Shown here: positions 18 through 55,370 of the stretch, piece by piece
How positions within the stretch are numbered: the first letter of the stretch is position 1
Layout of the letters: each line of letters opens with the position of its first letter
NCBI GenBank assembly: GCA_025403435.1
Contig: JAJQZP010000259.1
Location: 992,001 to 1,056,000 of the forward strand
Origin: Artocarpus heterophyllus
Lineage: Eukaryota; Streptophyta; Magnoliopsida; Rosales; Moraceae
DNA: 64,000 nucleotides
Direction: 5' to 3'
Program-made: the position numbers and the translations under genes
Notes under the pieces: generated by a model
Seen by the model: only the letters and a program-made list of their open reading frames with translations
The model's database searches: none
What the model was told of the DNA's origin: nothing

Positions 18-179
18 GATCGGTAGGCCGATCTGGGTGATCGGCCTGCCGGTCTTGAAGGTTTGGCCTGCCGGCAGAGCACCCTAATTTTTGCCTCACT
101 GTTGGCCTGCCGGACCACACGTCTGGCCTGCCGATCTGTGACCATCGGCCTGTCGAACTGTGACGTCCGGCATGCCGAC
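18..179. repeat. Phased dyad array in leader of element A (7 units)
   Basis: Seven imperfect copies of the dyad TTCGGC-NN-GCCGAA. Reading by eye, the dyad centres fall at about 25/26, 46/47, 68/69, 107/108, 128/129, 150/151 and 172/173, giving spacings of 21, 22, 39, 21, 22 and 22 bp. The same spacing series recurs in the leader of the intact element at 28790-28972, which has one extra unit upstream of the matching register. The central dinucleotide is AG, CT or AT. Confidence 0.75.
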
Positions 180-23855: not shown

Positions 23856-23866
23856 ATCTCCCACTT
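23856..23866 (-). other. Polypurine tract of the copia element
   Basis: Minus strand reads AAGTGGGAGAT immediately before the 3' LTR start TGTTAG. This is the usual plus-strand priming site of plant copia elements. Confidence 0.8.
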
Positions 23867-23869
23867 GCA

Positions 23870-27822: not shown

Positions 27823-29463
27823 TTTCAATCTACAATAAAGAATCATATACCAAACATAAGCAAACATATATAATAATTTAGTAAGATAACACAATCATGT
27901 AAATTATACAAATGTGTTTATGTGTCAAAACCTTGAAAATATCACAACCTTACAACGATAATTCCCAACTCAGAATTCAACATGCTCCTAGGGGAGTCAT
28001 GCCAAATTCAATTAGGAACACGGATCCCCTCCTGATTAATATATGCCATCCAGGACCCGTATGATCCAGCATATACTAATAATCGTTTCTTTGGCCATTA
28101 ATTTTATTAACAGAGCTCCTAGGGGAGGTTAATAATAAAATTAACGTGAGTGTATAACCACCGTTTTAATATTTTATCCATGATTTATAATCACCACCTA
28201 GGGGTGTGCAATCATAAATCATACTAAAATACCTTATCCTTTCAGAGATCCAATCTGGTACATGATAGAAATCCCTTCCTAGGGGTTGGGACCATCATGT
28301 TCTTCCTATGGACCAACGATGGAGGCCTTAGGTTCTCTCTTCGAAAACCTTCTCCCACTCAATCTTTTGAAGTCAAGGTTTTATTTTAAAATTATGCATG
28401 AACAATTTTAATATGAGCGGCACTCCCTATTCTATATGACATGTTATCAATATACATGGTAAATCATATTATAATGCAGACAAGCAAAGCAATCAAGCAA
28501 AGCTACAAGCATAATAATAATAACCGTAATATTATGGTTCCACCCTAGAGAATAGAAAAAATAAGATTACAAGAGAATAATCGAGACATTTATCGATTCT
28601 TCATCCTTGAATCCTCAAGCTGTATCCTTCTTCATGTAATATCCATCTTCAAGTCCTCAATCCCGTATGAATCGAACACTTCATATTTCCGGTCATATCC
28701 AAATTTAATGTTTCTCAGAATCGTCCCAAAAATAAAATTAAAACTGCACTGAAAAAATCGCACCTTTTCTGGACACCTGGCAGCTCTCGGTCGGCAGGCC
28801 GATCTGGGTGATCGGTCTGCCGATCATGGTGGTTCGGCCTGCCAAACATGAAGGTTCGGCCTGCCGGCAGAGCACCAAAATTTCTGCCCCACTGTCGGCC
28901 TGCCGGACCGTATGTCCGGCCTGCCGATCTGTGACCTTCGGCCTGCCGAACTGTGAGGTCCGGCATGCCGACCGAGCAGAAAACCCTCAATCCAGAAAAT
29001 ACAATTTTAATGCAATTCATCAATTTTATTTTCAACAATTCAAAAACATAAAATTAGAGACTCAGGAAATACCTGGAGGCGCCATCATCTATCTTCAAGA
29101 TCCGACTTCTCGTTCCGTCTTCTCCGAATAATTATTTAATTACAAAATTCTTACAAATTAAATAATAATTCCTAGACGGAGATGATAGTCCGCCATCTAA
29201 TTACATGAAAAACCTAGATACACATTCTAACCTCTAAGGAACCATAACCGGTATTAATTAATTAATAAATAATTAAACAACAATTTAATCAACCATAATT
29301 AATTAATAAACATTCACCATATAATCCATGACAACATATATATTATATAGAAACCTAGAGTGCCATCTCTCTATAAAATTTAATTCAAGCATTGGAGAGA
29401 TTAAGATCACAAAATTTATGCATATAACATGATCACAAACTTGCAAATTTATGTAAAAACCTC
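27823..29463 (-). mobile_element. Leader (5' UTR) of the intact copia element
   Basis: About 1.6 kb between primer-binding site and gag with no long ORF in sense. It contains a dyad array at 28790-28972 and is shared, in more decayed form, with elements A, C and N. It would carry packaging and translation signals, none of which I can pinpoint. Confidence 0.75.
28790..28972. repeat. Phased dyad array in leader (8 units)
   Basis: Centres by eye at 28796/97, 28817/18, 28839/40, 28861/62, 28900/01, 28921/22, 28943/44 and 28965/66. Spacings are 21, 22, 22, 39, 21, 22 and 22 bp. The best unit is TTCGGCCTGCCGAA at 28937-28950. Arms are TTCGGC and GCCGAA with CT, AG or AT in the middle. The block is GC-rich and CpG-rich inside an AT-rich leader. 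Confidence 0.85.
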
Positions 29464-29476
29464 GGCTCTGATACCA
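29464..29476 (-). other. Primer-binding site (initiator tRNA-Met), intact element
   Basis: Minus strand TGGTATCAGAGCC, two bases from the 5' LTR edge at 29479. Confidence 0.92.
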
Positions 29477-29870
29477 ATTGTTGGAAACAAAGTACGCAGC
29501 GGAATTTTTAAAAATTTTTCATCAGAGTATTTTCCAAAACACAAGTTTGACATGTTATATGTATAAATTAAACAGATCTTACTAACCTCAGTATGCCGAA
29601 GAACCTCCGCGACCTGTGTAGAGAAGTAACGTTCCAGAAGAGCCTCAACCAACTGGTCTTCTTTGCTATTCTCTATCCACAACCGGAGTGAGTGTGGGCT
29701 CACACGTACAGCTCTTCCACCGGTGACTCTCCTTCCAACCAATAGAGAGAACCCAAAGCTAGTGTTCGTGATTTGTGAACAAAAGCTCTCAGGGAGTTTT
29801 TAGATGCTCACTAGAAGAGTATCACTCTTAATCTCTCAAATTGATCTGAGTAAATCATTAGACTCACTCC

Positions 29871-29880
29871 CTTTTTATAC
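29871..29880 (-). promoter_or_regulatory. TATA box in 5' LTR (element promoter)
   Basis: GTATAAAAAG on the minus strand with a CCAAT sequence just upstream. Transcription would run leftward into R/U5 and the leader. Confidence 0.75.
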
Positions 29881-29997
29881 CTATTGGTCCTTGGGGTCAG
29901 TCCATATCAGATTAGGTCTCAAAAATCGAAATTGAATCAAGTTCGGATCAATATCTGATAAGATACGCGTGAAAAACGCGTAATCTTAGCTGTCGCG

Positions 29998-30075
29998 GTC
30001 GGCATGCCGAACTGTGAGATAGGCAGGCCGAACTGGCCAGTTCGGCAGGCCGAACACGTCATCCGGCATGCCGAA
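29998..30075. promoter_or_regulatory. Phased dyad array upstream of the LTR TATA box (4 units)
   Basis: Dyads centred at 30004/05, 30025/26, 30047/48 and 30068/69, spacings 21, 22 and 21 bp. The third is a perfect TTCGGCAGGCCGAA (30041-30054). The array lies about 120-200 bp upstream of the TATA box in element sense, an enhancer position. Regulatory function is inferred from position and regularity only. Confidence 0.7.
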
Positions 30076-31514
30076 CTGCCGAGAAAAAATCTCCGCGAAT
30101 CTTTTATTTTCCACCCGAGATTCTAAAGGATAAAGTCTCAGTTTTGATTCAAATAGCCCAATAAAAAAGATATCTGATCAAAACAAACTTTATCAAGATA
30201 ATCTCTAAGAAAATAAATCAATTCACAATAATTCTACAAGTTTATCTTGTTCTAATTGTCCAAAATTAAAACAACCGATAAACAGACAAGAATTATCCGA
30301 ACGCCATAATTCAACAAGTTCATCTTGAACTAATTTCTTACATAATTAATTCAACCGATAAACAGACATGAATTATTTGATTCTTATAAATTTTAAACCA
30401 ATCTGATAAATCCGACATAAGTCACCAATTATTGGAAAAGCACGCCGTGTCGTTACAGGATTTTGTGAGCTAGCAAAGGGGACCAAAATGGACCTATAAA
30501 GTTCAAGCTCATGATAACTATGAAACCTAATATCCCAGATATACATTTCACAATTATCAACTCCAACGCTACTCCACTAAAAGCTTGGAGCTGCACTCTC
30601 GAACTTTATAGAATTACGAAGCTCGAGTAGCTAAGTCTCCATGACATATCATAGTGTATCGCATCCCCATATGATCATCCATAATCGGCTTAAGGACAAG
30701 TTCTGTCTTACCTTCCCGATTATTTTTATCTTACGTTCCATTGTCTCACCATTAGAAAACTTACCATCCAAAGATAGTATACCATTCGGTTACACCTATG
30801 TATCCAAATGGTTGAGCGCTCCAGTTTTCCAATTACAGGACAACGCATATAAGAGGATATCATTACTCCTAAAGAGGAGCTATGGATTCCATATCTATGA
30901 ATAACAAGTCTACGCTACCAAGAGTCATGCCTCCAACGTACCGGCATGCTTGCCACTATAGAGATGTGGGAGTCACCCATTGGTACATCAAAAGACACAA
31001 GTCGAGACAACGGGCCCATTATTCATCTCAGGATTAAGATACAATACAAATGATTGTCTAAAGTGAATCGATTTGACAAGACAGAATTATTAATCCAAAT
31101 CAATTCACTTTATGTCCCGATCCAACACATCGTCACCTATGACAACGCGCCAATGTTTCTATTCACGGAGTCCAACTCCGATGGCTAAGACAAACCATCT
31201 CCCAAAAGGGATATAGACAACATAACAATCTTTACATGAATAAAGCGCCCAACTTTATTCCCTCGATTGCGGATCATATATTTTAGACCATCACCTTAAG
31301 AGTCGTGTCTACCGCATAATCATCCCATCATATGCCCAATTCTTAAGGTTTAGACTGACAGTCTCAGACTACTGTTTGCTTATCATACATTCAACAAATA
31401 TGAACGTAAAGAGGACAATATTTGGTATATATATAAATGAATAAATTCTTTATTGATAAAAATGTCTCCAAAAACGTATTACATTTTTACTCCTTAGAGC
31501 ATACATGTCTAACA

Positions 31515-31519
31515 AAAGG
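31515..31519. repeat. Target-site duplication AAAGG, right copy
   Basis: Matches 21815-21819 exactly. Confidence 0.9.
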
Positions 31520-32521
31520 TATGTCCTTTTCCCCAATTTATATAACAAAGTCAACTCAAACAATCTTTATTGCTAATTGTTTGAATATTTTGTGCCTATT
31601 TTATTGGGAATATGAGATGAATTTGACAACGGTTATTTGCAAGACTTTGATGGTTTTCTATGGAATTGTTATCACTAGTATTTAGATTTTTCTTTAGTTT
31701 TTATATTTAGAATTTATGGATTGAAACATTGAAATTAGGAAATTGTTTCTATGTTAATTTAACCTTAGTTTTATTAGTGTGTTAGTTTTAGTTTAAATAT
31801 TATTAGTTTTAATATGTTATTTTTATTGTCATTATATTTTAGTTTCATATATATGTCGATTTTGGAAATTTAATGTTGCTTATTAATTATATGCTAGTTT
31901 TTGGGTTATTAGTTTTAATTAAATATTTATTTTAATTCTAATTATACGTTTGTTTTAATTATAAGTGTTCTTGTTTAAGAATATTTCAAAATATCAGCTA
32001 ATGAATTCATGGTTATGGAGGGGGAAATTATCGCACAAGACAATGGTTATGAGCTTGAAAAACAAGAGCCATTTATTCTGGATGTAGATAGAAAAAAAAA
32101 GGGGCAACTTTGATAAAGAAAACATCAAAGTTAAGCTTAAAAGGTATTAAAATAGAAGTCCTATTTGATGAAAAAGATCAAACTCTTATAAAAGAGGGGG
32201 ATGAGCTCTAAAGGTATATTGGAGTTTTAGTTGGAGAGCGCTTCCCAATAACAACAAAGAATTTGGAGAGAAAAGAAGAATAAGGACAATGTAAAGCGTG
32301 TTTGACAAGGTGTTTTTGCATCCTTCACCTTTCCCAACACCATGAAGAAGAAGTTGATGATAAGCACTACTAAGATGGCCAAAAACTTTAGGTACAACCT
32401 AAAGAAGGCTTTCATTGAACCCAATGAAGATGACCCCAATGTTTTTAAGCTCCCTACAAAAGTAGTTAAATTTATCCTTCTATTAGTTTAGACCAATAGA
32501 GGGATTTTCTGAGAGGGGTGT
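31520..32521 (+). mobile_element. CACTA transposon, continuation after the copia insertion
   Basis: Continues the CACTA sequence interrupted at 21819. The first bases after the duplication, TATGTCC, together with AAAG|G read like an exon end plus splice donor (AAAG|GTATGT). An AT-rich intron-like stretch follows, then the coding remnant from about 32009. It is cut at 32522 by a copia LTR. Confidence 0.5.
32009..32500 (+). pseudogene. CACTA TNP1-type protein remnant
   Basis: Broken coding sequence in the order expected for plant CACTA second-ORF proteins: an acidic start (MVMEGEIIAQDNGYELEK), then KIEVLFDEKDQTLIKEGDEL, then the block YIGVLVGERFPITTKN, then KMAKNFRYNLKKAF with an acidic NEDDPN tail. 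The signature G-V-L-V-R-x-x-x-P-I-T is recognisable. An A-run near 32090-32101 causes a frameshift and several stops follow, so it cannot be expressed intact. Confidence 0.55.
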
Positions 32522-33701
32522 TGTTGGAAAAACGAATACACAATGGAATTTAAAATTTTCTATTTAAAAGTTTTTTCCTAATAACAAGTTAGAATGCTAT
32601 GCATATACATTAATTAAAGATCTTACGTACCTATTTCAGACCTAAAACTACATTTCTAAATAGCGAAGATTTCTATCGGAATTGCTATAAGAGAACTGCT
32701 ACCGAAAGAGCCTCTATCAACTGGTCTTCTTTGCTATTCTCTTTTCCATGATTGGAACACGAGTGGGTAGACCTCGTTCCGTCTTTCCTCAGGCATACTT
32801 CCAACCACTTGAGAAAACCAAGAGCTAAGGTTTAGGATGCTAAACAATAGCCCTATGAGAGTTTCAGAGTTTTTCTTAATAGAATACTCTCTCTAAATTT
32901 CTCAAGTAATTTAAGAAATCTGAATTCCTCAAGTGATCTAAGAAATAATGGGAAAAACCAATCCTTTATATAGTGGTCGGACTGAGACACATTTTTATCA
33001 AATTAGGCTTCAAAAATTCGAGTTTGGTAAACACATTAAACATAGATAGCTGACTGCCAAGGTCCGGTCTACTGGCCTACTCTATGTCCAATCGACCAGA
33101 CTATCATGGTAGACACTCCCATGCATTTTTCCAACACCAGAGAGTTATCATGATTTACCCACACGAATCTAATGGATAAATCCTACTTTATTTGACCTGG
33201 GTATCTATTAAAAAACTTCAATTTTAGTTTAAATAACCCAATAGAGAAGTTATCTGATTAAAAAAATTCTAAATAGATAATTCCATATTTAGAAAAAATA
33301 TATATTTCAAATAATTCAACTTATTTATTTTAAATTAATTTTATAAATTAATTCAACTAATAAACTAACATGAATTGTTAAATCCAATTAATCAAATCTT
33401 AGTCAATCTTATGAATTAACATAAGTTACCAATTTGTCGAAAAGACATGCCATATCATTACAGAAAATTATATGAGTTAGCAAAAGGACCCGATAGACTT
33501 ATATAGATCGAGCTTCTATAATTATAAAATGACATGTCCCTGACACATACAATTTATAATTATCAACTCTGAAGCTACTCCACTAAAAGCTTTAACTTGC
33601 ACTCTCGAACTATATAATTACAAAACTCCTATAAGTTACACGTCCATGATATATCATAATACATAACATCGCCATAGGATATTTATTATTGGCTTAAGGA
33701 T
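32522..33701 (-). repeat. Copia LTR J, part 1 of 3
   Basis: Starts TGTTGGAAAAACG and aligns with the LTR at 58330-60289 (a family related to but distinct from the intact element). Broken at about 33701 by element K; the break removed roughly 50 bp of this LTR. In element sense this is the 3' part (R/U5 side). Confidence 0.7.
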
Positions 33702-35647
33702 AAAATTTGTAACTTGACCAATTGATAAAAATAAACATTCAAAAAGGCAAGTACTTTTCTAAATCAGAGTGTAAAATGAAATAAATATTTTTGTGGTTTT
33801 TATTTTATTGAATTCAAAATTTAAAGCATAAAATTAAAACGGTGAAGCTTTGAGAATCCCTTGTATGTTTTGCAATTGATATGAAATTTTAATTCTAATT
33901 AATAATTATCTAAAGCATTTGATTTATTATATATTTTCTCATTAATTGCAAGCACTTTTTACTAATTATATAGGTCAACCGAGAGCAACAATATAACAAG
34001 CCATAATGCAGCAAGGGTTTTTCTATAAAAAAAACTAGCAAAATAATCATCTCTCACTGATGATTTGGTACACTAATTATTAAAATTATAACCACTGTCA
34101 CTCAATCATAATTAACATAATTTTAAGATAGAAAAAATAATAACAAATCAAAATTTTTATATTTTTACGGAACAAATTATTGCGTTAATTTCGGCAGCGC
34201 CTCGACTTATTAATTGGTTTAAGAATACACTATGTCATCCTTGTCTACAATATATCAAGAATTACCAAGCATTTACTGTGCCAGTTCATGTCTATAATGC
34301 AGCAGAAACTCAACTTAATAAACGAGCATGACTTCAATGCATACAAGATCATCTCTCTGCCTCAACGACTCTCTACACTAATTTAAGCATTATTTTGTCT
34401 AAGAAGATACTGCTGAGTTTAACTCAACAGAAAGGAAAAAGAAAGGAAAAAAGGGCCAAAGGCCCGAAGGGATGCCCAAAGATGGGAGAAAGCAAGGCTA
34501 TTTATAGCCTTGAAAATTATTGTTTCTACTTTTTTTTAATTATTATTTTTATTATATTTTATTGTTCAATAATTTGATCATGTTGATCTGTTTTCTCCTT
34601 TTTTCCATGCTGAGATTCGTCCTTAGAGATGCAAATTTGAGTTTGAAATTTGTTGTTGCACGGCGATGATAAGCACTGAAATGGGATGATCTAACGCGTT
34701 CTTTTCGCCATCCAACGGTCAGTAGACAAGCTTTGAATTGGGCCAAGTGGGACCGGTAAGACTAGGATTAAAAACCATTTGATCAGTCATGGTAATTAGA
34801 TCCAACAGCTGGAAAAGAGGCTGCACATGGACACAACCGCACATAATTGGGCAGCACTCTAAGACACTCTTTGATGCTCGTGAGTCTTGTCTGTGCGTGT
34901 GGTGCACTCGCCAATCAGAGATCGACACAGCGGAGTCTTGGCTGACGTAAGGGCTGATGTGTTGACACGCGTCTCTTCCTCGGATGGCTGAGATTGATTT
35001 GGCAGATCATCCGATGGCCAAAAACTTGCCACGTGTCCTATTTAATTTAAATTTGAATTTTCTTTATCTTTTTGATGCATTTGATGTCCGATTTTATCCA
35101 TTTTGGTGTCGTTTTGCTCCGTTTTTCTCCAGATTTCAAATCTAAAAATCACAAACACACTAATATTAATTATTTTACAAACATAATATTTACAAAAATA
35201 TTAAAAATATTTATTTTACATTAAAATACACAAAAATAAATAAAAACTCCTAAAATTTTCAGTCTCTTACAGTTTAACACAAATATAATTTTTATGACTT
35301 GAAAATATTTTTAGAAATTACTAAAAATATAATAAGACATATTTACAAACTTAAAATACACTATCAAATACACTAAAACTCAAAATAAAATAACCACATT
35401 ACTTTTACGGTTTTGACTATTTACAAACTAGACATTTATTTAACACACCGAAATGACTCTAAAAATTACTAAAAATTCTATTAAACATAAAAACACACTA
35501 AAAACACATTTTTAAACATATTTACACACTAAGACACGAAAAAATTGTTTAATACAAAGTTGCTATTAATTAGAGGATTTAATGAGAAATAAAAGCATAA
35601 ATAAATGATTTAAGCCTTAGAAAATGTACACTTTTACAGTCTCATCA
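33702..35647 (-). repeat. 3' LTR of element K, left copy (truncated)
   Basis: Aligns with 38696-40823. Relative to that copy it lacks about 190 bp (present at about 39325-39510) and the outermost part next to the insertion edge. Ends CATCA. Confidence 0.75.
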
Positions 35648-35657
35648 CACCCCCTAA

Positions 35658-37141
35658 CTAGCTTATTGCTAGTTTCTAGCAATTAAAGCGATATAATTTT
35701 GAAATGATATATTGAATAATCATAAAATGGAAACCATTTAACTATAATTTGACTTATCTAACTAGATAGACTAACAAAACCAAAATTTTATTTGAACAAT
35801 TTATATGCTATTTAACAAAATGTATACAAACCAGACTTAGTGCAGAAAGGGATAATGAATAATTATGAAGTTTCAAAACTAAGAATAAAATTATTTTGAT
35901 ATTTTGCTTCAATTCACTCCTACAGGCAGCAACACTTCAAATTGTTGATTTGGAACAATTAAAGAGCAGAAACATAGAAATATTTACAGACTTTATAATT
36001 ATGGATAGTGCAATGCTTAGTTCCCTTAAGCTTTCTCCATAACCCATTTAACGAGCTTTGGGTTAGTAACTCCTAGACCAGTTGGTCTAAGGTACTAGGT
36101 GTTGAAGCACCCCTTAGAACTTACTTACTCGAGTTAAAGAGGCTACGAAACCAAACTTATCCAAATTTATTCATTAATTTATATAATTACACACTTTATT
36201 TATTTACAATTTCTTCTTTGTTTTTTCTTTTTTTTCTTTTTTTTATTTTTATTCTTTTTTTTTTGAAATATTGTTGCCTTCAGTTGTTCATCTTCACAAA
36301 ATAACAAAACTCAAATATTCATAACTTTAACTTACCACCACAATTAAACATTATAGTGTGCGTGTGAAAAAAATGGCTTACAAACACTTTGAAAATAAAC
36401 ACGTAAAAATGTTAAATAAAACTAAAGTTTTGAAAGTGTATAAAATTAGATAATCCAAAGAATAGAAACATAATATTACATTAATATGAAATTCAAAGAT
36501 CAAAACAAAATAATAACACATTAATTACTAAGAAACTAATATTTACAAAATATTTTTTTTAATTTTTTTTAAAATTTTATGACTCACACAAAAAAAAAAA
36601 CAAAATCTGGAGTGAAAATAAAAAGAATTATGGGCAAAAATCGAAAAATTTTAGCACAGCACAACTTTGAAGCACAACTCTAAAGTACAACGTTTAAGCA
36701 CAACTTTAGAGTACAACCCTCTCCCCCCAACCTAAAATATATATTATTCAAAATAAATAAAAGAATGGTGAAAGCAGCAAAAATATTACCTGAATCAGCA
36801 CAGCTATAGAGATGATTTGTGGTAAACTTAACAAACTAAAACTAAAAACTAACAAAGAAAAACAAAATTTTTTTGTTGAAATTTATTTGAAAATCCAAAC
36901 CAATTGCATTTACAAAATTAAACTTATTAGAATGCATCTCGAGAGAAAACAATTTAACTCCTTAACTCAGCCATTCTGAACAAATTTAATTAATAGCCTT
37001 CACTTTAAATTTTCAGAATAAATTTCATTTTTTTTTAAGAAAATCAACATAGCACACACCAACACAAAAGAATATATTACAAAGAATGGAATGTAAAGAT
37101 ATTACTTTGAAAGTGTTTTACCATCGCTTGATGCTCTGAAA
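35658..37141. other. Non-coding AT-rich interior of element K
   Basis: No ORF of note. Contains poly-T and poly-A runs and a short tandem array of an AGCACAACTTTAA-like unit at about 36655-36720. It occupies the place of pol. Confidence 0.6.
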
Positions 37142-38070
37142 TTAGCAAATCTTTCTTTCAGCTCCAGCTCCTGCTCCTAGTGGACAATCGTCAAAGAGCG
37201 GCTTTCTCCCATAGTAAGTGTCGAAAGACACCACATATGGGTCTTGTGTAAACATGCCCTCAAGATTGGCAAAATTCGAAACATTTAAACTCATGAAACT
37301 TAGACACATTTTATATTCTTGGTAGGTCCTTAAAAATGATGCTAGAGGCGGCGAAGGAGGTGGTGGCCACATAGGATCTTGGTTAAAATGGTCTTTGGTG
37401 AATTCTTGTGGCAACTGAGGTTGAGAATCTAAGACTAAGGGTGATGATTGTTCATGTTCTATAGCTAAGTCTTCATTCTCTTTCTTACATTCCTCTCCTA
37501 GAAGTTGTTTCTCAAAATAGGTGGGTTCTAAATATTCTTCTTCAATGATTGGGACAACTATTTCTTCCTTAACTAAAGAATCTTCTTCAAGTAACTCATG
37601 AGAATATTCAAGCCTTTCTAATTCTATTTTCGTCATGGTTTTCATATATTTCTCTAAAGTTTCTTCCAATGTTTCTAAGGTTTCTTCCAAATTCACTCTA
37701 TTTGGGTCACTATATGTCTCTTGTAATTCAAAATTTGACTCCAAAATTTCCGGTTGATTGTTAGGCCAATATTCTAAAAAATTTGAATTGTTCTCCCAAA
37801 TTAAATTGTTCCCAGAACTATTCGATCTCCAATAATCATATTCGGCCATATCTTCCAACATACAATAGGCTTCATCAACAGATAATAGGTAAAAAGTGGT
37901 GGTACCATCTCCTCTCTCTACCTAATTTTTAGTTTCAGGACTTAACCCATATATGAAAATTTCTAAAAGATAATCCTTAGAAAAACCATGGTGAGGATAC
38001 CTATCTAGCAAGTCTTTAAATCTCCACCAAGCACTATAAATGGTTCCAAGTGTTGTTGGGAAAAATTTGC
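37142..38070 (-). pseudogene. gag: gypsy Gag remnant of element K (Athila/Tat-like)
   Basis: Read leftward from about 38070: FFPTTLGTIYSAWWRFKDLL then RYPHHGFSKDYLLEIFIYGL, the typical core of plant Retrotrans_gag domains (AW-RFK-LL-PHHG). An in-frame TAG at 37922-37924 follows, then DEAYCMLEDMAEYDYW and a 239-residue open frame (37142-37861) rich in Glu and Leu, with a proline run PPPPSPP. No zinc knuckle is visible. The start is disrupted by T-rich sequence near 38100. Its role would be particle assembly; the stop makes it defective unless read through. Confidence 0.65.
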
Positions 38071-38582
38071 AATGAAATGTCGATGAATTTCCCAATACAT
38101 TTTTTAATTTTTTAATTTTTTACTTTTTTTAATTTTTTTTTTTTTAAGAAAAATTTTCAAGCTGAATAATGCTCAAATAATTGGATTCCCAGATTGTTGG
38201 GGGGCCACAGTGGACACGCTTAGAATTTTTAACTTTCTTACACAAGGGTGTTAGCCTTATGGTCGTAGGATCAAGTCCCAACGATGGGTCTTTTTGACAG
38301 AATCCAACAAATTTTACAATTACCCAAACTTGCAAAACAAAAGACAGAATGCAAAGCTTTTCTTTATCCGAAACGAATAAAGTAGTGAGTGAAGAGCATC
38401 CGTCCGTTTTTTTATTTTTTTTATTTTTTTATTCTTTTTTAAATTTTTTTTAAATATTTTAATTTTTTTATTTTTTTTATAATAAACACACAAATTAAAA
38501 ATGTAAATAATTAAAATAATATTTACAAAAGATAGGTATAGATTACTTACCTGTTTTCCCGTTTAATTCAATAATCTGACAG

Positions 38583-38594
38583 AGCAACGGCACC
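38583..38594 (-). other. Primer-binding site of element K
   Basis: Minus strand GGTGCCGTTGCT resembles the TGGCGCCGTTGCC site used by plant Athila/Tat elements, with one or two changes. Confidence 0.55.
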
Positions 38595-40823
38595 TTCCCA
38601 ACAACAGAGCCAGATTTTTAGTAACGCCCAAAATGTTTCTTTTTAAACGGCGGACGTTTGTAATATAGAAAAGTTGTCGTATCCACATGAAGGTGAAAAT
38701 TTGTAACTCGACAAATTGATAAAAATAAACGTTCAAAAAGGTAAGTACTTTTTCAAATCAGAGTGTAAAATAAAATAAATATTTTTGTAGTTTTTATTTT
38801 ATTTAATTCAAAATTTAAAGCATACAATTAAAACGGTGAAGCTTTGAGAATCCCTTGTATATTTTGCAATTGATATGAAATTTTAATTCTAATTAATAAT
38901 TATCTAAAGCATTTGATTTATTATATATTTTCTCATAAATTACAAACATTTTTTACTAATTATATAGGTCAACCGAGAGCGACAGTATAGCAAGCCATAA
39001 TGCAACAAGGGCCTATAAAAAAAACTAGCAAAATAATCATCTCTCATTGATGATATGGTACACTAATTATGAAAATTATAACCGCTGTCACTTAATCATA
39101 ATTAACATAATTTTAAGATAAAAAAAAATAATAAATCAAAATTTTTATATTTTTATGGAACAAATTATTGCGTTAATTTCGGCAGCACCTCGACTTATTA
39201 ATTGGTTCAAGAATACACTATGCCATCCTCTGTCTACAATAAATCAAGAATTACCAAGCATTTACTGTGCCAGTTCATGTCTATAATGCAGCAGAAACTC
39301 AACTTAATAAACGAGCATGACTTCAGTATTATTAATATTAATTATGCAACACAATTAAATTACATAAAGAAAGCATGACTGAATTTATGCAAGAATTAGG
39401 CAGCATAACAACATTAATAATAATTATTAAAAACATAAAGATATAATTTATTCCACAAAATATAAGCATTACAAAACAGATATAGAGTTAAAATCCATAC
39501 CAAAATACTATGCATACAAGATCATCTCTTTGCCTCATCAGACTCTCTACACTAATTTAAGCATTATTTTGTCTAAGAAGATACTGCTGAGTTTAACTCA
39601 ACAGAAAGGAAAAAGAAAGGAAAAAAGGGCCAAAGGCCTGAAGGGATGCCCAAAGACGAGAGAAAGCAAGGCTATTTATAGCCTTGAAAATTACTGTTGT
39701 TATTATTTTTTAATTATTTTTATTTTATTTTATTTTATTGTTCAATAATTGGATCATGTTGATCTGTTTTCTCCTTTTTTCCACACTGAGATTCGTCCTT
39801 GGAGATGCGAATTTGAGTTTAAAATTTGCTGTTGCAAGGCGATGATAAGCACTGAAACGGGATGATCTAACGCATTCTTTTCGCGATCCAACGGTCAGCA
39901 GACAAGCTTTGAATTGGGCCAAGTGGGACCGGTAAGACTAGGATTAAAAACCGTTCGATTAGTCAAGGTAATCAGATCCGACGGCTGGAAAAGAGGCTGC
40001 ACATGGACACGACCGCACATGATTGGGCAGCACTCTAAGACACTCTTTGACGCGCGTGAGTCTTGTTTGCGCATGTGGTGCACTCGCCAATTAGAGATCG
40101 ACACAACGGAGTCTTGGCTGATGTAAGGGCTGACGCGTTGACGCGTGTCTCTTCCTCGGACGGCTGAGATTGATTTGGCAGATCATCCAATGGCCAGAAA
40201 CTTGCCACATGTCCCATTTAATTTAAATTCGAATTTTCTTTATCTTTTTGATGCATTTGATGTCTGATTTTATCCGTTTTGGTGTCGTTTTGCTCCCTTT
40301 TTCCTCCAGATTTCAAATCTAAAAATCACAAACACACTAATATTAATAATTTTACAGACATAATATTTACAAAAATATTAAAAATATTTATTTTACATTA
40401 AAACAGACAAAAATAAATAAAAACTCTTAAAATTCCCAGTCTCTTACGGTTTGACACAGATATAATTTTTATGACTTAAAATATTTTTAGAAATTACTGA
40501 AAATATAATAAGACATATTGACAAACTTAAAACACACTATCAAACACACTAAAACTCAAAATAAAATAACCGCATTACTTTTACGGTTTTGACTATTTAC
40601 AGACTAGACATTTATTTAACACACCGAAATGACTCTAAAAATTACTAAAAATTCTATTAAACATAAAAACACACTAAAAACACATTTTTAAACATATTTA
40701 CACACTAAGACACAAAAACATTATTTAATACAAAGTTGCTATTAATTAGAGGATTTAATGAGAAATAAAAGCATAAATAAATTATTTAAGCCTTAGAAAA
40801 TGTGCACTTTTACAGTCTCATCA
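38595..40823 (-). repeat. 5' LTR of element K, right copy
   Basis: From the primer-binding site to CATCA before the host CTCAC. Only 38696-40823 can be aligned to the left copy; assignment of 38595-38695 to the LTR is inferred from the primer-binding site. Confidence 0.65.
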
Positions 40824-41266
40824 CTCACCATTAGAAAACTTACTATTCATAACTAATACGAAAAGTATACCATTCGATTACACATATGTATTGAAATGGT
40901 TGAACGCTCCAGCTTTCTAATTACAGGATAATGCCTATAAGAAAATATTATTAACTCTATAAAAGAGCTATGGATTCTATACCTCTGAATAATGAGTCTA
41001 CGTTATTCAAGAGTCATGTATCCAATGTACCGACATGCATACCTCTATATAATTCAAGATGTCACCCTTTAGTACATCAAGAGACATAAGTCAAATATAT
41101 GGGCTCATTAATTCATTTTAGTATTAAGGAGTAATACATATTATTGTCTAAATTGAATTGACTTAAACAAACTGAATTATTAATTAAGTCAATTTAACTT
41201 TTGTCCCCATCCAATATATTGTCATCTATGACCACGAAAAGTCATATCCTATTAGGGATGTAGACA
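40824..41266 (-). repeat. Copia LTR J, part 2 of 3
   Basis: Continues the LTR interrupted at 33701 (CTCACCATTAG onward) and ends in AGACA, the left target duplication of the chromovirus L. It aligns with 59510-59998. Confidence 0.7.
41262..41266. repeat. Target-site duplication AGACA, left copy
   Basis: Identical to 50243-50247. Confidence 0.88.
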
Positions 41267-42386
41267 TGTCACGCCCCGGAGTACGGGAGGTGACGTGGCG
41301 GATTGTTTAAATTAATTAAAAGGGAATTTAATTAAAATCTAGAGATTAAGAGTTTGAGTTAAATATAAAACATGAAAAATTAAATAATAAACATAGCGAA
41401 TATGGGTCTCGTAGATCCACAACTTATGCACACACATGGTACTGACAATATCATGAATACAATCACAGTCCAGGATACAAATAAAGTTAAGATTCTAACA
41501 TGCCTTGATTTAAATAATACAAATAAATTAGATAATCCTTCTATTGCTCCTGAGTTCGGTCCGAAGAATCCTCTCCAAACCTAAATGGGAAACCACCTAG
41601 AGGGGGGGGGGGGGGAATTTAGAACAAATAAAACGTGAGCAAAAGACTCAGTAGGACTATGTTTTACAAAATAATTTAATTTAAAGGAACATTTCATTAT
41701 TCAGGAATTATTTAAAAGAAACCTTAAATAAATAAATAGATAAATAAATAAACAATTTTAAGTAAAACCATTCTAACCCAGAATAGTTTACTTAGATAAC
41801 CAGAAATATCATTTTCTTTTTCCCAGACAAACCATAATATCACCACCGTAGTGACCCAGCTGAGTTTCGGGACCTGCCCCCAAGGTCGATCGCTACACGA
41901 CTCGTTCTCTGATATGGCATCATGCCTATGTGTTTATTATCATCATCATTCAAAACCCAATTACCAAGTGTTGTCATTTACATTCATTATGAAGTTTATT
42001 TCAAATCACGGTATATTAAAATATAACCGATAAATACATTTTTCAAACAACCGTTGGAGACACTTTAATAGAAATCCTTTTTAAAGCGAAATCATTTCAA
42101 AACCAGGCTAACAAAGAAATAGGATAGAAGTCCTACCTCAATATTCGTGCTAGTGCCCCACACCGTAATCCCGGTCCGCTATACGTTAGCTCTGCAGAAC
42201 CACGAACGATCCTAGATACAAACTAAGTCGATCAATATCTAGTTCGAGACATTCTATGTTACTAAACCATTTCATGATATCCTAGTGTGCCATTTGTATC
42301 ATTAAAATCATTCTATAAGGTTGGGATTTAAATCAGGGTTCAAAATAGTGAAAATGGGTAAAAATCACAAAAATTTTCATGCCTCG

Positions 42387-42486
42387 GTCGGCCTGCCGGA
42401 CTCCCTACCTCGGCCTGCCGGACTGAAGAACACCGGCCTGCCGATCCCTATTCCGGCCTACCGAACACGCAGTTTGGCCTGCCGAA
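42387..42486. repeat. Dyad array in 3' LTR of L (5 units)
   Basis: Centres at about 42393/94, 42415/16, 42438/39, 42458/59 and 42479/80 (spacings 22, 23, 20 and 21 bp). Same TTCGGC-CT-GCCGAA type as the copia arrays. Confidence 0.8.
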
Positions 42487-42959
42487 CTGGGAAAACCCAG
42501 AAATTCCAGCCACGGGTTTCGATTTCCCCAAAACCCAAATCTTGACTCTAACCTGTTTTTCTCAAATCCCAGGCATAGAAAACATTCATAGATGATAGAA
42601 AAACATATTTAGACACTTTAAAACTCATTTAAACAAGATTCAAACACAAATTCCGAAAATCCAAAAATAGGAAAAATTGAGGAAAAATGAAAAATCTTGA
42701 ATCCAATCCGTTTTTCTTCAATCTAAGCTTAGATTCTAGGTGTTCTAAATTCATTTAACTCAAATCCATGGTTTTCTAAGCTTAAACAAACCTAGATTTC
42801 AAAAATGCACAAAATTGAAAATTTTGTAAAAAGTTTAGAAATTTCAAATCTAACCTCGAATCGAAGCTTCAATCTGCGTTCTCGGTTGCTAAATCACGTT
42901 CCCGAGCTTCCTCCTTGCTAATCCGAAGCTTGGATTCGAATTTGGGATCAAAAATTTTG

Positions 42960-43028
42960 AGAGAGATAGAGAGAGAGAGAGTGTTGCTGAGAGATCAAGA
43001 GAGAGGGAGAGAGAGAGAGAGAGAGAGA
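42960..43028. repeat. GA microsatellite, 3' LTR of L
   Basis: Interrupted GAGA tract; the counterpart in the 5' LTR is at 49846-49923. In element sense it is a CT-rich stretch just downstream of a TATA-like CTATTTATT, so probably transcript leader. Confidence 0.8.
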
Positions 43029-43346
43029 AACCGGTGAGAGTGAGGAGAGGGGAGGGAAAAAGAAAATAAATAGAGAAAATCGGTGGGCAGTTTTACTGTG
43101 CAAAAATCATGTGCCGCCCATGGTTTTGTAAAACGGAGTATTTTTAATATTTTACAAATTGTTGTGTTTTAAAACTCAAAACATCTTTTTAAATCAATAA
43201 GAAATCATTTGGATTCAACAAATTAACAAAACAACCAAAAATTTAAAATCCAACTAAATAATCTAATTAATGTTAAAACATTAATCATGGCACACTAATT
43301 CATCATTTATATTACATTTACATTAAATAAATTTCGAGGCGTTACA

Positions 43347-43359
43347 ACTCTCCACCCCT
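43347..43359 (-). other. Polypurine tract of L
   Basis: Minus strand AGGGGTGGAGAGT beside the 3' LTR start TGTAACGCC. Confidence 0.75.
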
Positions 43360-43394
43360 AAAAGAAATTTCACCCTCGAAATTTACAACTCATT

Positions 43395-46300
43395 TCAAAA
43401 ACAAAACAAATGTGGATACAATTCTTGCATGCTCGACTCTAGTTCCCAAGTGGCTTCATCAATCCCATAATGCTGCCACACGACTTTTACAAACGGTATC
43501 TCACGACGACACAAACTAATCACTTTTCGATCGATAATCTAAATCAGCACTTCTCTGTACGTCGTATCCTCCTGAACCTGCACATCGCGAAACGAAACTA
43601 TCTTACCCTGCTCAGGTGGACACTTCCTAAGCATCGACACATGAAATACATCGTGAACATGAGAAAGTTCAGGCTGAAGATCAAGCCGATAAGCGACCAC
43701 ACCAACACGCTGAGTGATCTCGAACGGCCTAATATACCTCGGTGCGAGCTTCCCACTCACTCCGAACCGCATAGTTCCCTTACGAGGCGATACCCTCAAG
43801 AGAACGAAATCTCCAACCGCGAACTCTAAAGGTCTACGTCTCCTATCCGCGTAGCTCTTCTGCCGACTCTGAGCTGCTCTCAATCGATCTCAAATCACCG
43901 CGACTTTCTCGTTGCTATCATGAATCTCATCCGGTCCAAGAATAACCCTATCTTCTGGCTCGGCCCAACACACAGGTGACCGACACGGTCGCCCATACAA
44001 CGCCTTAAATGGTGCCATACCGATACTCGCCTGATAGCTATTGTTGTACGCGAACTCTGCCAAATGCAAACATTGCTTCCAGTTTCCACCGAAGTCCAAC
44101 ACACAAGCACGCAACATATCCTCGAGAACCTGAATAACCCGCTCAGACTACCCATCAGTCTGAGGATGAAACGCCGTACTAAAGTTCAAATCCGTACCTA
44201 AAGCCTCCTGAAAACTCCTCCAGTACTTAGCATTAAACCTGGTGTCTCGATCAGAGGTGATGGACAAAGGAACTCCATGCAACCTCACAATGTCCTGCAT
44301 ATACAACTCCCCGAGAACCTTCCTCGAACACGTCGACCTAAACGAAATGAAGTACACCGATTTTGTCAACCTGTCGACCACAACCCAAACTGCATCGTGC
44401 CGCTGCTCCGCCCTCGGCAAACCTGTGAGGAAATCCATCGTCACATGCTCTCATTTCCACCCTGGAATAGGAAGCGGCTGAAGCTGACCTATAGGCTTCT
44501 GATGCTTGGCTTTCACCTGAAGACACGTCGAACACTTGGCCACATACTCTCGAACATCTTTCTTCATGCCTCTCCACCAATACTGCCTCTTCAAATCACG
44601 ATACATCTTGGTGCTCCCTGGATGAATACCGAACTAAGACCTATGGGCTTCGTCTAGAATGGCTTTCGTCACCTCGGCGATAACTGAAACTGCAAGATGC
44701 TCCCAGAAGTACAACGATCCATCTACATGCATGCTCCATTCCTCAAACTGTTCCCCGTTCTGAATCCGCGACCAAATCCCCTGCAAATGCCGATCCTGCC
44801 ACTAACTTTGCTTCACCATCCGAACAAGAGCTGGAGTCGCTTCCACATGATACACCGAAACTCGATCACAATCTTCATGATACCGTAGCCGATACTCACT
44901 CACTGTCGCATCCCTGCTCCAGTCCTCAAAAACCAAACAAGCTAGAATCCCTGAAGACTTCCTGCAAAGCGCGTCCGCGACCACATTAGCCTTCCCGGGA
45001 TGATACTGCAACGCAAAATCATAATCCTCCATATGCTCGATCCATCTACGCTGCCTCAGATTAAGATCCCTCTGAGTGAACAAATATCTCAAACTCTTGT
45101 GATCAGAGAAGATCTGAAACGACGATCCATACAAGTAACACCTCCAAATCTTCAGCACGTAGATCACCGCCGCAAGCTCTAAATCATGAGTAGGATAATT
45201 TCGTTCATGAGGTCGTAGCTGTCTCGATCTATACGCAACTACACGTCCATGCTGCATCAACACACATCCAAGTCCGCGCCCTGAAGCATCCGCATAAACC
45301 TCATACGGCTCGCCACTGCTAGGAATAACTAACACTGGAGCTGAAGTCAACCGGTTCTTCAATTCCTGAAAAGCAAGCTCACAATCTTCATCCCATTCAA
45401 ACCTGACATTTTTCTTGATCAATCTCGTCAACGGAGCTACAATCTTTGAAAAATCTTTTACAAATTTCCTGTAATATCTAGCAAGACCCAAGAAGCTGCG
45501 AATCTCCGCTATATTCCTTAGTCGTTCCCACTCCAATATAGCTTCAATCTTGGACGGATCCACAGAAATACCATGCTCTGAGATAACATGACCCAGAAAC
45601 TTGACCTCAGTCAACCAAAACTCACACTTTTCCCTCTTAGCATACAACTGGTGCTCCCGCAGAGTCTGAAGCACGATCCAGAGATGCTGCTCATGCTCCT
45701 CCCAAGTCTTAGAATACACAAGAATGTCATCGATGAACACGATCACGAACTGATCCAAATACGGCCTAAATACCCTATTCATCAAATCCATAAAAGCTAC
45801 CGGAGCATTTGTCAACCCAAATGACATAACCAGGAACTCAAAGTGCCCATACCGTGTCTTGAAAGCTGTCTTAGGAATATCCTCTTCCTTGATCCTGAGC
45901 TGATGATAACCTGAGCGCAAATCAATCTTTGAGAAGTACCGCGAACCTCCCAACTGATCAAACAACTCATCAATCCTAAGCAAGGGATACTTGTTCTTCA
46001 CCATAACACGATTCAGCTGCCGATAATTCACACATAACCTGAGAGTCCTATCATGCTTCTTAGCAAACAAAACATGTGCTCCCCACAGAGATGTGCTATT
46101 CTGAATATATCCTTTATCAGCAAGCTCCTAAAGTTGCTTCCTCAATTCTTTCATTTATATCGGCGCCATCCGATAAGGTGCCATAGAAATCGGTGATGTC
46201 CTTAGAAACAACTTGATACCAAACTCAATTTCTCGATGCTGTGGTAATCCTGGCAACTCATCAGGGAAGACATTCTCAAACTCATCAATCACCGGAATCG

Positions 46301-47987
46301 CTAAACTGCCTCTCGAAACATAGGGCTCGCAATCTAGATTGGCAAGAAAAGCACAACAACCTAGATTCCTTCGCCTTCCTAGACACGACTTCATGAGACG
46401 CTCACTCATTAACCAATCACCACCACCCTGGTAAGTGATCATCGTCCCCCTATCAGACACTAGGGTCATTTTTCTAAGTTGGTAGTCCACGACTGCACTA
46501 TACCTGGACAACCAGTCCATCCCTAGAATTACATCATAGGAGCTCATGGGGAGTATAATCAAATCACTTTTCAAAATCTCATCCCCAATCTTTATTTTAC
46601 AGGATTTACACATACAATTTACACACACCCGCCCTAAGGGAGAAGTTATGACTAGGGGTTCATTAAACTTTTCTACCTCTAATCCTAAGGCATGTACAAA
46701 AGAACTCGAAATGAGAGAATGAGAGGCACCGGTATCGAATAAAACATGAGCTAAAGATCTAAAAATCAAGATCATACCATCGACAACCGTGTTACCAGTC
46801 TGAAAATCTGACCCTCCAGATGCCATTGCGTGAACCTGCACTGGCGCCTTTCCTTTTCCTCTACCGACATTGCTGGGTCCTGGATTACTCGGCCGATGCT
46901 GCTGAGATGGAGACAACTGCACACTACCTGTACTCGACACTCGATACTAAGGAACACTGCGCTGAAAATGTTGCGGCTACTGCCCCCGTGCCGGATATGA
47001 GAAATGCTGAGGAGAGAACTATAGATACTGCAACTGCGGGTACTGCGGAGGTGGAGGTAGGGTCTAAGGCTGAGGCTGAGACTGACGACTGGCATCCTCC
47101 CCGGTCTGAGTTCCAAGACGAGCACTCCTGATCGGGCAATTCCTCTTGATGTGTTCAGGCTGCTGACAGAAATGACAATGGAAGCTGTAGGGATTGCTGC
47201 ACCCACTGCCAGACGAACTGCTGCTACCACTAGTCGCACCGCCTTGCTTGCCTTTCCCCGGAGCTGGACGACTACTAGTGCTCTTCCTGCCACTTCTCTG
47301 TGGTCCTCCTGAAGCCTTGGCTCGGTCCTCACAGTACTGCACATAATCATTCTCCACGGATATCGTCGACAACACAAGCTCTCCAAAACTCCTAAGCCGT
47401 AGAGCAACCAACTGCTGTCGAATAGGAGCCTTGAGTCCTTCCTGAAACTTCATACATTTCTCACGCTCTGATGCCACCGCTGATGGAGCAAACCTAGCCA
47501 ACTTATTAAACTTTGCCTCATACTCCCTAACTGACAGATCACCTTGCTGCAACCTGTAGAACTCAGCTGCCTTCTGATCTCTATACCCCTGCAGAAAATA
47601 CCGATCATAGAACAGCTCCTCGAACCTGTCCCAATTGATATCACCACCGCGCTCTAGACGCTTAGCCTGTTTCCACCAAGTGTTAGCGCCACCCTCGAGC
47701 TTATACGCAGCAAATTCCACACGATACTCCTCAGGCACACCAAGAGTATCCAAATGCTTCAAGATCGAATCCAGCCAATACTCTGCTAACTGCGGATCCC
47801 CATTGCCATCAAAAGTCAAAATTGACGCCCGTCGGAATTCCTTAAAGTACGCATGCCGACTACCAACATCAGAATCTCCCGGTCTAGCCCTAGCTGCCAT
47901 CTGTCGGAAAGCCGCAAACATAGACCTCATCATGCTCTCATCGTTTCTGAACTCGACGTCAGCTGTCGAACGACGTCTAGGTGCCAT
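43395..47987 (-). pseudogene. gag-pol: gag-pol of chromovirus L, one frame with 12 nonsense codons
   Basis: From ATG at 47987 to TGA at 43395 the reading frame is unbroken by any indel (1530 codons). Gag (MAPRRRSTADVEF start) carries a CHFCQQPEHIKRNC zinc knuckle near 47160. Protease DTGAS is at codon 418. RT has [11 protein letters not shown] and FIDDILVYS around codon 752. RNase H has [13 protein letters not shown]. Integrase has CSTC zinc ligands, then D1185, D1246 and E1282 (35 between the last two), and a GPY-type C-terminus. A chromodomain (IPFVKVVWQHYGIDEATWEL) ends the protein. In-frame stops lie at 47064, 47019, 46977, 46947, 46155, 46128, 44802, 44634, 44451, 44148, 43890 and 43539. 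Nine are TAG. It cannot be translated through without suppression. Confidence 0.9.
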
Positions 47988-48077
47988 TCTCTCACTTCTG
48001 AAAACAAAATTTGGACTGTCAGAGGTATTTTATTGTCAAACCTATGTGTGCACAATTCCCAAGGTTCATAACCTTGA

Positions 48078-48089
48078 GCTCTAATACCA
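48078..48089 (-). other. Primer-binding site of L
   Basis: Minus strand TGGTATTAGAGC, the initiator tRNA-Met site with one C-to-T change, three bases from the 5' LTR. Confidence 0.8.
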
Positions 48090-49205
48090 TTCTGTCACGC
48101 CCCGGAGTACGGGAGGTGACGTGGCAGATTGTTTAAATTAATTAAAAGAGAATTTAATTAAAATCTAAAGATTAATAGTTTGAGTTAAATATAAAACATG
48201 AAAAATTAAATAATAAACATAGTGAATATGGGTCCCACAGACCCACAACTTATGCACACACATGGTACTGACAATATCATGAATACAATCACAGTCCAGG
48301 ATACAAATAAAGTTAAGATTCTTACATGCCTTGATTTAAATAATACAAATAAATTAGATAATCCTTTTATTGCTCCTGAGTTCAGTCCGAAGAATCATCT
48401 CCAAACCTAAATGGGAAACCACCTAGAGGGGGGAAAATTTAGAACAAATAAAACGTGAGCGAAAGGCTCAGTAGGACTATGTTTTACAAAATAATTTAAT
48501 TTAAAGGAACATTTCATTATTCAGGAATTATTTAAAAGAAACCTTAAATAAATAAATAAATAAATAAATAAACAATTTTAAGTAAAACCATTCTTACCCA
48601 GAATAGTTTACTTAGATAACCAGAAATATCATTTTCTTTTCCTAGGCAAACCATAATATCACCACCGTAGTGGCCCAGCTGGGTTTCGGGACCTGCCCCT
48701 AAGGTCGATCGCTACACGACCCGATCTCTGATATGGCATCATGCCTATGTGTTTATTATCATCATCATTCAAAGCCCAATTACCGAGTGTTGTCATTTAC
48801 ATTCATTATGAAGTTTATTTCAGATCACGGTATATTAAAATATAACCGATAAATACATTTTTCAAACAACCGTTGAAGACACTTTAATAGAAATCCTTTT
48901 TAAAGTGAAATCATTTCAAAACCGGGCTACCAAAGAAATAGGATAGAAGTCCTACCTCAATACTCGTGTCGGTGCCCCACACCGTAATCCCGGTCCACTA
49001 TACGTTAGCTCCGCGGAACCACAAACGATCCTAGATACAAACTAAGTCGATCAATATCTAGTTCGAGACATTTTATGTTACTAAACCATTTCATGATGTC
49101 CTAGTGTGCCATTTGTATCATTAAAATCATTCTATAAGGTTGGAATTTAAATCAGGGTTCAAAATAGTGAAAACAGGTAAAAATCACAAAAATTTTCATG
49201 CCTCG

Positions 49206-49373
49206 GTCGGCCTGCCGGACTCCCTGCCTTGGCCTGTCGAACTGCACAGTTTGGCCTGCCGAAAGCAAAGTTCAGTTGGCCGAACAATTTCCAGGTTCGG
49301 CCTGCCAGACTGAAGAACACCGGCCTGCCGATCCCTATTCTGGCCTACCGAACACGCAGTTCGGCCTGCCGAA
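49206..49373. repeat. Dyad array in 5' LTR of L (8 units)
   Basis: Centres at about 49212/13, 49234/35, 49256/57, 49277/78, 49302/03, 49325/26, 49345/46 and 49366/67 (spacings 22, 22, 21, 25, 23, 20 and 21 bp). The last is TTCGGCCTGCCGAA. It has three more units than the 3' LTR; the extra 66 bp equals three 22-bp repeats. Confidence 0.8.
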
Positions 49374-49845
49374 CTGGGAAAACCCAGAAATTCCAGCCAC
49401 GGGTTTCGATTTCCCCAAAACCCAAATCTTGATTCTAACTTGTTTTTCTCAAATCCCAGGCATAGAAAACATTCATAGATGATAGAAAAACATATTTAGA
49501 CACTTTAAAACTCATTTAAACAAGATTCAAACACAAAATCCCAAAAATCCGCAAATAGGAAAAATTGAGGAAAAATGAAAAATCTTGAATCCAATCCATT
49601 TTTCTTCAATCTAAGCTTAGATTCTAGGTGTTCTAAGTTCATTTAACTCAAATCCACGGTTTTCTAAGCTTAAACAAACCTAGATTTCAAAAATGCACAA
49701 AATTGAAAATTTTGTAAAAAGTTTAGAAATTTCAAATCTAACCTCGAATCAAAGCTTCAATCCACGTTCTCGGTTGCTAAATCACGTCCCCAAGCTTCCT
49801 CCTTGCTAACCCGAAGCTTGGATTTGAATTTGGGTTCAAAAATTT

Positions 49846-49882
49846 TGAGAGAGATAGAGAGAGAGTGTGTTGCCGAGAGATC

Positions 49883-49923
<41 letters not shown>
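49846..49923. repeat. GA microsatellite, 5' LTR of L
   Basis: GAGA tract, counterpart of 42960-43028. It generates open frames of repeated Arg-Glu or Ser-Leu that are not genes. Confidence 0.85.
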
Positions 49924-49929
<6 letters not shown>

Positions 49930-50242
49930 GTGAGAGTGAGGAGAGAGGAGGGAAAAAGGAAATAAATAGAGAAAATCGGTGGGCGGTTTTACTGTGCGAA
50001 AACCATGTGCCGCCCACGGTTTTGTAAAACGGAGTATTTTTAACATTTTACAAATTGTTGTGTTTGAAAACTCAAAACATCATTTTAAATCAATAAGAAA
50101 TCATTTGGATTCAACAAATTAACAAAACAACCAAAAATTTAAAATCCAACCAAATAATCTAATTAATGTTAAAACATTAATCATGGCACACTAGTTCATC
50201 ATTTATATTACATTTACATTAAATAAATTTCGGGGCGTTACA

Positions 50243-55187: not shown

Positions 55188-55243
55188 TTCGGCCTGCCGA
55201 TTAGAAAGTTCGGCCTGCCTATCACACAGTTCGGCATGCCGAC
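55188..55243. repeat. Dyad array in solo LTR P (3 units)
   Basis: Centres at 55194/95, 55215/16 and 55236/37, spacing exactly 21 bp twice. One unit fewer than the LTRs at 21820 and 29479. Confidence 0.8.
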
Positions 55244-55360: not shown

Positions 55361-55370
55361 GTATAAAAAG
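55361..55370 (+). promoter_or_regulatory. TATA box in solo LTR P
   Basis: GTATAAAAAG with ACCAAT just upstream. A sense ORF (55499-55813) follows that runs through the LTR end into flanking DNA. Confidence 0.65.

Follow-up and report, generated by a model that had tools for sequence, protein, structure and literature searches.

We analysed a window of 64,000 nucleotides from Artocarpus heterophyllus (assembly GCA_025403435.1, contig JAJQZP010000259.1, positions 992,001 to 1,056,000 of the forward strand) and found that a Ty1/copia and a Ty3/gypsy retrotransposon both carry arrays of one short palindromic dyad. In the copia element such arrays are located in the U3 part of the long terminal repeat (LTR), upstream of the TATA box, and in the 5' leader; in the gypsy element they are located in both LTRs. 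The form of the arrays is that of the RM boxes of Sireviruses. With a probability of about 0.5, they constitute a fast-evolving cis-regulatory array acting at the DNA level, which would serve a dimeric host factor and would be of the RM-box type outside Sireviruses. All results are from this single 64-kb window, and the gypsy side corresponds to one element with its two LTRs.

The dyad core is CGGC-NN-GCCG, with CAGTTCGGCNNGCCGAACTG as its fullest form. A scan of the window with TTCGGCNNGCCGAA, allowing up to 3 mismatches, gave 58 matches; 100 dinucleotide shuffles gave 7.33 on average and 17 at most. Nine arrays contained 46 of the 58 matches, 3 belonged to degenerate arrays in two diverged LTR relatives (H and J, Table 1), and the remaining 9 were scattered, which is about the number expected by chance. 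Copies of one family are among the nine arrays; without this redundancy, three arrays with 20 units remain, with 4 units in the copia U3, 8 in the copia leader and 8 in the gypsy LTR. Across these three arrays, successive spacings were 21-22 bp in 13/17 cases and 20-23 bp in 15/17, in agreement with the first-pass annotation, which had described centres recurring mostly every 21-22 bp. It had also listed the arrays of the copia 5' LTR, the copia leader, the leader of copy A and the two gypsy LTRs, and all of them were found at those positions; the copia LTR arrays of the 3' LTR and of copies A, B and E come in addition. CGG-N4-CCG occurs 29 times in the window, versus 2 times with N0, 4 with N1, 1 with N6 and 9 with N8, and never with N2, N3, N5 or N7. 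The GC content of the arrays is 0.60-0.64 compared to 0.34 for the window, and the observed/expected CpG ratio is 0.80-1.04 in the arrays, all shorter than 200 bp, and 0.85-0.99 in the flanks and whole LTRs.

Table 1 Dyad arrays and their carrier elements, in window coordinates.
Feature	Position	Strand	Remarks
U3 dyad array, copia 5' LTR	29998..30075	-	4 units, spacing 21, 22, 21; near edge 119 bp upstream of TATA (29879)
U3 array, copia 3' LTR	22339..22416	-	4 units; TATA at 22220
Copia leader dyad array	28790..28972	-	8 units, two blocks of 4; centre AG in 6/8 (element sense)
Leader array of copy A	19..179	-	7 units; cut by window start
U3 array of copy A	1189..1266	-	4 diverged units; spacing 21, 22, 21
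U3 array of copy B	16432..16488	-	3 units
U3 array of copy E	55188..55243	+	3 units; LTR on + strand; TATA at 55362
Degenerate array, diverged relative H	56721..56798	+	4 units, spacing 21, 22, 21; 106 bp upstream of TATA
Two dyads 63 bp apart, diverged relative J	60538..60614	-	near edge 95 bp upstream of TATA; scan P=0.022
Dyad array, gypsy 5' LTR	49206..49373	-	8 units, spacing 20-25 bp; centre AG in 7/8 (element sense)
Dyad array, gypsy 3' LTR	42387..42486	-	5 units
TATA box, copia 5' LTR (TATAAAAA)	29872..29879	-	identical word in copies A, B, C, E
Complete Ty1/copia element	21820..31514	-	5-bp target-site duplication CCTTT; self-BLAST, termini, Pfam gag, integrase, RVT_2
Copia LTRs	21820-23855 (3'), 29479-31514 (5')	-	99.85% identical
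Complete Ty3/gypsy element	41267..50242	-	5-bp target-site duplication TGTCT; coding region in several frames
Gypsy LTRs	41267-43346 (3'), 48093-50242 (5')	-	about 95% identical

The window contains five close copies of the copia LTR, A to E (C and D form the LTR pair of the complete element), together with a partial copy B' that stops short of the array; five diverged LTR relatives, F to J, were aligned with them, and smaller fragments are also present. The near edge of the U3 array lies 119 bp upstream of the TATA box in 5/5 close copies, and the distances in H and J are somewhat shorter. In its aligned parts the LTR of H has an identity of only about 68-76%; its four degenerate dyads nevertheless exhibited exactly the spacing of those in D, and 0/500 shuffles contained as many. 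In J the two dyads occupy the homologous place; the carrier status of both H and J is based on the dyad scan alone. Relative G (33067-33105) contains two weak dyads 24 bp apart (P=0.002) with a near edge 95 bp from TATA as in J, which may be a remnant array, but G was left out of the carrier count because each dyad matches at 7/10 positions only. A whole or degenerate array at the homologous place was thus found in 7/10 aligned LTR copies, or 8/10 counting G. The possibility, raised at first pass, that the sharing comes from a single recombinant copy is thereby ruled out on the copia side; on the gypsy side one element is at hand. Copies A and D have the leader array. The leader of F has no dyad and that of I has two hits at 7/10 positions, scored without a control. 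In the four copies readable at both places (A, D, F and I), the presence or absence of the leader array goes with that of the U3 array. Where A and D have the leader array, relative I has CTGGTCAA-like repeats instead (57700-57930); as a candidate second motif array they were not significant (P=0.15 and 0.33 with k-mer shuffles), nor were the repeats of F, G, H and J in the k-mer test.

The first-pass annotation had named no known feature type for the arrays, and here the RM boxes provide one. As described in the accessible part of the original report (Bousios et al. 2010, PMC2829016), RM boxes are palindromic repeats of Sirevirus LTRs, with a CGG-CCG core in all but one, present in many copies shortly upstream of TATA; additional clusters precede env in some elements. 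The same part of the report finds them in 13 Sireviruses and not in the classic copia elements examined, and presents them as Sirevirus-specific. The present arrays resemble them in palindromy, in the CGG-CCG core present in the dyads, in GC-richness, in clustering in the LTR upstream of TATA and in a second, internal cluster, although this cluster lies in the 5' leader in the copia element and before env in Sireviruses. A position shortly upstream of TATA was found for copia only. The copia arrays therefore fit the RM description in form and place, and the gypsy arrays in form. Unit number differs, with 4 units per copia LTR instead of many. The threshold of at least 8 copies used for RM boxes counts the linker and 3' LTR (PMC2829016, accessible part); the copia element has 4 units in the 3' LTR and 8 in the leader, the gypsy element 5 in the 3' LTR and 8 in the 5' LTR, and on the 3' LTR alone both elements fall short.

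The main difference concerns the carriers: Sireviruses on one side, and here, with one common sequence, a Ty3/gypsy element and a copia element lacking the Sirevirus polypurine tract (PPT) and linker. No AGGGGGAG, of which Sireviruses have multiple copies as PPTs in a long linker, was found in the copia element, whereas AGTGGGAG occurs at four scattered places in it, only one of them adjoining the 3' LTR. The linker is nearly nil, the reverse transcriptase open reading frame (ORF) ending at 23870 and the 3' LTR starting at 23855. A terminal AGTGGGAG with a near-absent linker is the classic copia type in the available text of PMC2829016. The primer-site junction CA/ATTGG/TATCAGAGC, a Sirevirus feature, is present, but according to the same text some classic elements also have a semi-conserved motif at this place; despite this match, the element is not a Sirevirus by its PPT and linker. 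The arrays look like a known kind of control element in new carriers. Among the literature matches listed, in a search with subscription literature mostly outside it, there was no report of RM boxes in Ty3/gypsy elements or in copia elements other than Sireviruses. A second comparison is offered by the maize Sirevirus palindrome CACCGGACNNNGTCCGGTG, which, in the accessible parts of two papers (PMC10760457, PMC5311732), forms variable CCG/CGG clusters with strong predicted structure in the LTR regulatory region, as here, but which differs in sequence and is shared between copia elements and Helitrons rather than between copia and Ty3/gypsy. Since the structured regions of Helitrons also have it as their most abundant motif (PMC10760457, available part), sharing across element types has a precedent.

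The array might work as follows. A dimeric DNA-binding protein of the host would recognise each dyad in the DNA as two inverted half-sites. Several dyads upstream of TATA would act as an enhancer of the LTR promoter, and the leader cluster would be their counterpart downstream. The array would grow, shrink and drift by slippage or recombination while keeping the dyad form and a spacing of roughly two helical turns, and the presence of the same sequence in copia and gypsy would reflect the same host factor, possibly aided by exchange between elements. In favour of this reading are the distance of the copia U3 array to TATA (119 bp in the close copies, 106 and 95 bp in H and J), the spacing conserved in H, the high turnover of the copia U3 array, the lower rate of change in dyads than in spacers with CpG transitions excluded, the absence of covariation between arms beyond their own preferences in the 20 units compared, and the resemblance to RM boxes in form and place. 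Of the portable cis-acting unit proposed at first pass, a cis-acting array in unrelated elements is retained as the best reading, without the unnamed feature type and without a constant helical face.

Comparable arrangements are known from other mobile elements. The U3 enhancer repeats of the Tnt1/Tto1 type and the heat-shock element of ONSEN are repeated host-factor sites upstream of TATA in copia LTRs, as the arrays here would be, and these motifs are tied to stress responses. The VANDAL/VANC anti-silencing repeats also consist of a short motif clustered in the non-coding DNA of mobile elements, in this case DNA transposons in which an element-encoded protein reads the motif. By contrast, the ORFs scanned here exhibited only gag, protease, integrase and polymerase domains. 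In viral contigs, a two-dyad pattern gave 0 matches, and reverse transcriptase peptide patterns of the copia and gypsy elements gave no match.

As to the factor, an LBD or a DREB/ERF type is a guess. The CGGC half-sites recall the LBD site GCGGCG, and dimerisation of LBD proteins is said to matter for palindrome discrimination (PMC10118128, in the part available). Several observations weigh against the proposed enhancer, some of them concerning the factor. Neither GCGGCG nor the GCC box GCCGCC is found in the three arrays, so that LBD is only a lead, and the DRE core GCCGAC occurs just 3, 1 and 1 times in them. The related LTRs F and I, which possess a TATA box, have no dyad at the array place, and with only two weak dyads in G, the full array is dispensable in the family. 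The distance from the U3 TATA downstream to the leader array is 907-1089 bp. The gypsy array is located about 0.87-1.04 kb into the LTR with no convincing TATA just downstream, only a weak TTATAGAA at 49136, which leaves its promoter role unplaced. Finally, high variability was not observed for the leader array (18/161 sites changed vs 31/472 outside it, P=0.06) or for the gypsy array (4/100 vs 79/1972, P=1).

The copia U3 array, on the other hand, turns over fast. In the comparison of D with A, 25/78 array sites differ, against 132/1941 elsewhere in the LTR (P=1e-10); for D and B the figures are 14/57 and 110/1820 (P=1e-5). Unit number changes as well, from 5 to 8 between the two gypsy LTRs and from 3 to 4 among copia copies. 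Both the hypervariable U3 and the changing unit number are what would be expected of a neutral minisatellite, a functionless GC-rich repeat of 21-22 bp expanded by slippage and spread by recombination or template switching; some spacers that look alike by eye, and the weak likeness of array ends and unit order between copia and gypsy reported below, also point in this direction. We consider this explanation unlikely, as H keeps the spacing and the dyad form despite its diverged LTR, and as it accounts neither for the place before TATA nor for the parallel with Sirevirus RM boxes in several plants (PMC2829016, accessible part). A weaker argument comes from the dyads themselves: with CpG transitions set aside, 25/310 dyad positions had changed versus 24/142 spacer positions (P=0.008, in five comparisons that share sequences). 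In three more independent comparisons the same test gave P=0.09, and with all changes counted the values were P=0.058 (five comparisons) and P=0.19 (three).

Regular spacing was also examined for helical phase. The first-pass claim that every dyad faces the same side of the helix agrees with the copia arrays and the 5-unit gypsy array, which at 10.5 bp have phase coherences of 0.96 (copia LTR), 0.84 (leader) and 0.82 (gypsy). It does not extend to the 8-unit gypsy array, in which four units lie on one side and four roughly opposite; its coherence is 0.13 at 10.5 bp, and a fitted period of 11.1 bp is needed to bring it to 0.81. A shared helical face is thus not a general property of the arrays, and regular spacing without selection for phase would follow from duplication of a 21-22 bp unit.

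The strongest rival to a DNA-level array is a function of the RNA, in which the palindromes of the genomic RNA would serve as dimerisation or packaging sites in the leader, or in which the leader at the 5' end would pair with U3 at the 3' end and join the RNA ends. In its favour, the leader array belongs to a transcribed region, and transcripts of LTR elements should include U3 at their 3' end. Predicted folding was stronger than in all 200 shuffles (z of -7.40 for the leader, -4.15 for gypsy and -5.19 for U3), although good folding is to be expected of any palindrome array. In the dyad centre the two copia arrays are mostly unlike, with AG in the leader and CT or AT in U3, which gives a perfect leader-U3 complement of 17 nt versus 12 nt within the leader; the longest complement, however, is one of 20 nt within U3 itself, and the leader-leader duplex energy, uncorrected for length, exceeds that of leader-U3. 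One unit of copy A exhibited a symmetric change in both arms (GTCGAC..GTCGAA), but the arms covary no more than shuffled arms in the 20 non-redundant units of the 46, a test that has copy A outside it and in which inner positions hardly vary. Conserved dimerisation and packaging signals are mentioned for BARE (PMC3735527, available part). That the U3 array keeps its distance to TATA also speaks against an RNA function, which altogether seems improbable to us.

Strong folding and the hypervariability of the copia U3 array are also compatible with an epigenetic battleground, as discussed for maize Sireviruses: hairpins of the transcribed palindromes would feed small RNAs, and changes in the array would represent escape. 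In maize, the palindrome regions are highly variable hotspots of small-RNA mapping, according to the accessible parts of PMC5311732 and PMC10760457. This explanation accounts for the turnover of the arrays but not for why the elements keep them, so that an epigenetic effect is more likely a consequence than the purpose, and as the primary explanation it appears very improbable.

Returning to the DNA-level array, its presence in two superfamilies could have arisen by exchange of sequence or by parallel selection, both being possible. The first-pass annotation had seen no other non-coding similarity between the two elements, a statement which is weakened by a slight likeness of the arrays beyond the dyads, all P values being uncorrected for the number of tests. 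In anchored flank scores, the leader and gypsy arrays show a slight resemblance at their ends (P=0.011 and 0.042), with P=0.06-0.12 for the U3-gypsy and U3-leader flanks. The order of units shows a weak resemblance between leader and gypsy (P=0.034) and between U3 and gypsy (P=0.016, the inverted order aligning better), with P=0.26 for U3-leader. Tentatively, the array may be a regulatory cassette crossing superfamilies, passed between copia and gypsy elements of one plant or independently selected in each, and placed in both U3 and leader of copia, since one host factor would read all of them.

Further features of the carriers were recorded. The copia coding region consists of two ORFs, one from gag to integrase (25672-27894) and one for reverse transcriptase (23870-25675), which meet at 25672-25675 between integrase and reverse transcriptase. 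Among the 120 homologues listed for this reverse transcriptase, one is named TNT 1-94, and named homologues among the matches listed come from Hibiscus, Acer, Citrus, Vitis, Cucumis and Malus. Two homologues (P0024 and P0103) are labelled Kitasatospora cathayae and Clostridioides difficile in public data and are probably plant DNA in bacterial assemblies. Four copia LTR copies exhibited a tandem duplication of 78-80 bp upstream of the dyad array (1417-1568, 16639-16788, 22569-22717 and 30228-30376), and another of 394 bp, with copies about 82% alike, is located at the start of the copy E LTR (53364-54151). The Pfam domains of the gypsy element are RVT_1, RVP_2, Integrase_H2C2, Retrotrans_gag and RNase H. 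No Pfam chromodomain was found in the gypsy pieces scanned, which leave 43347-43538 outside; judged by eye only, a chromodomain-like stretch in one frame of 43345-43560 makes a chromodomain likely. Pieces of diverged copia-LTR relatives flank the gypsy element on both sides (40824-41232 and 50243-50502), and the element may therefore be inserted into one such relative. A third LTR pair (33696-35648 and 38690-40824), about 94% identical, gave zero dyad matches.

In the literature, RM boxes are treated as a hallmark of a single copia genus, whose success they may help to explain. Arrays of this type with one common sequence, carried in one plant by a Ty3/gypsy element and by a copia element that lacks the Sirevirus PPT and linker, suggest a host factor used by several retrotransposon lineages, and the question of what binds RM boxes becomes testable with a single bait. 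If the array does cross superfamilies as a cassette, a genome's retrotransposons would have one switch in common, and RM boxes would be a device found generally in plant LTRs and not a Sirevirus trait.

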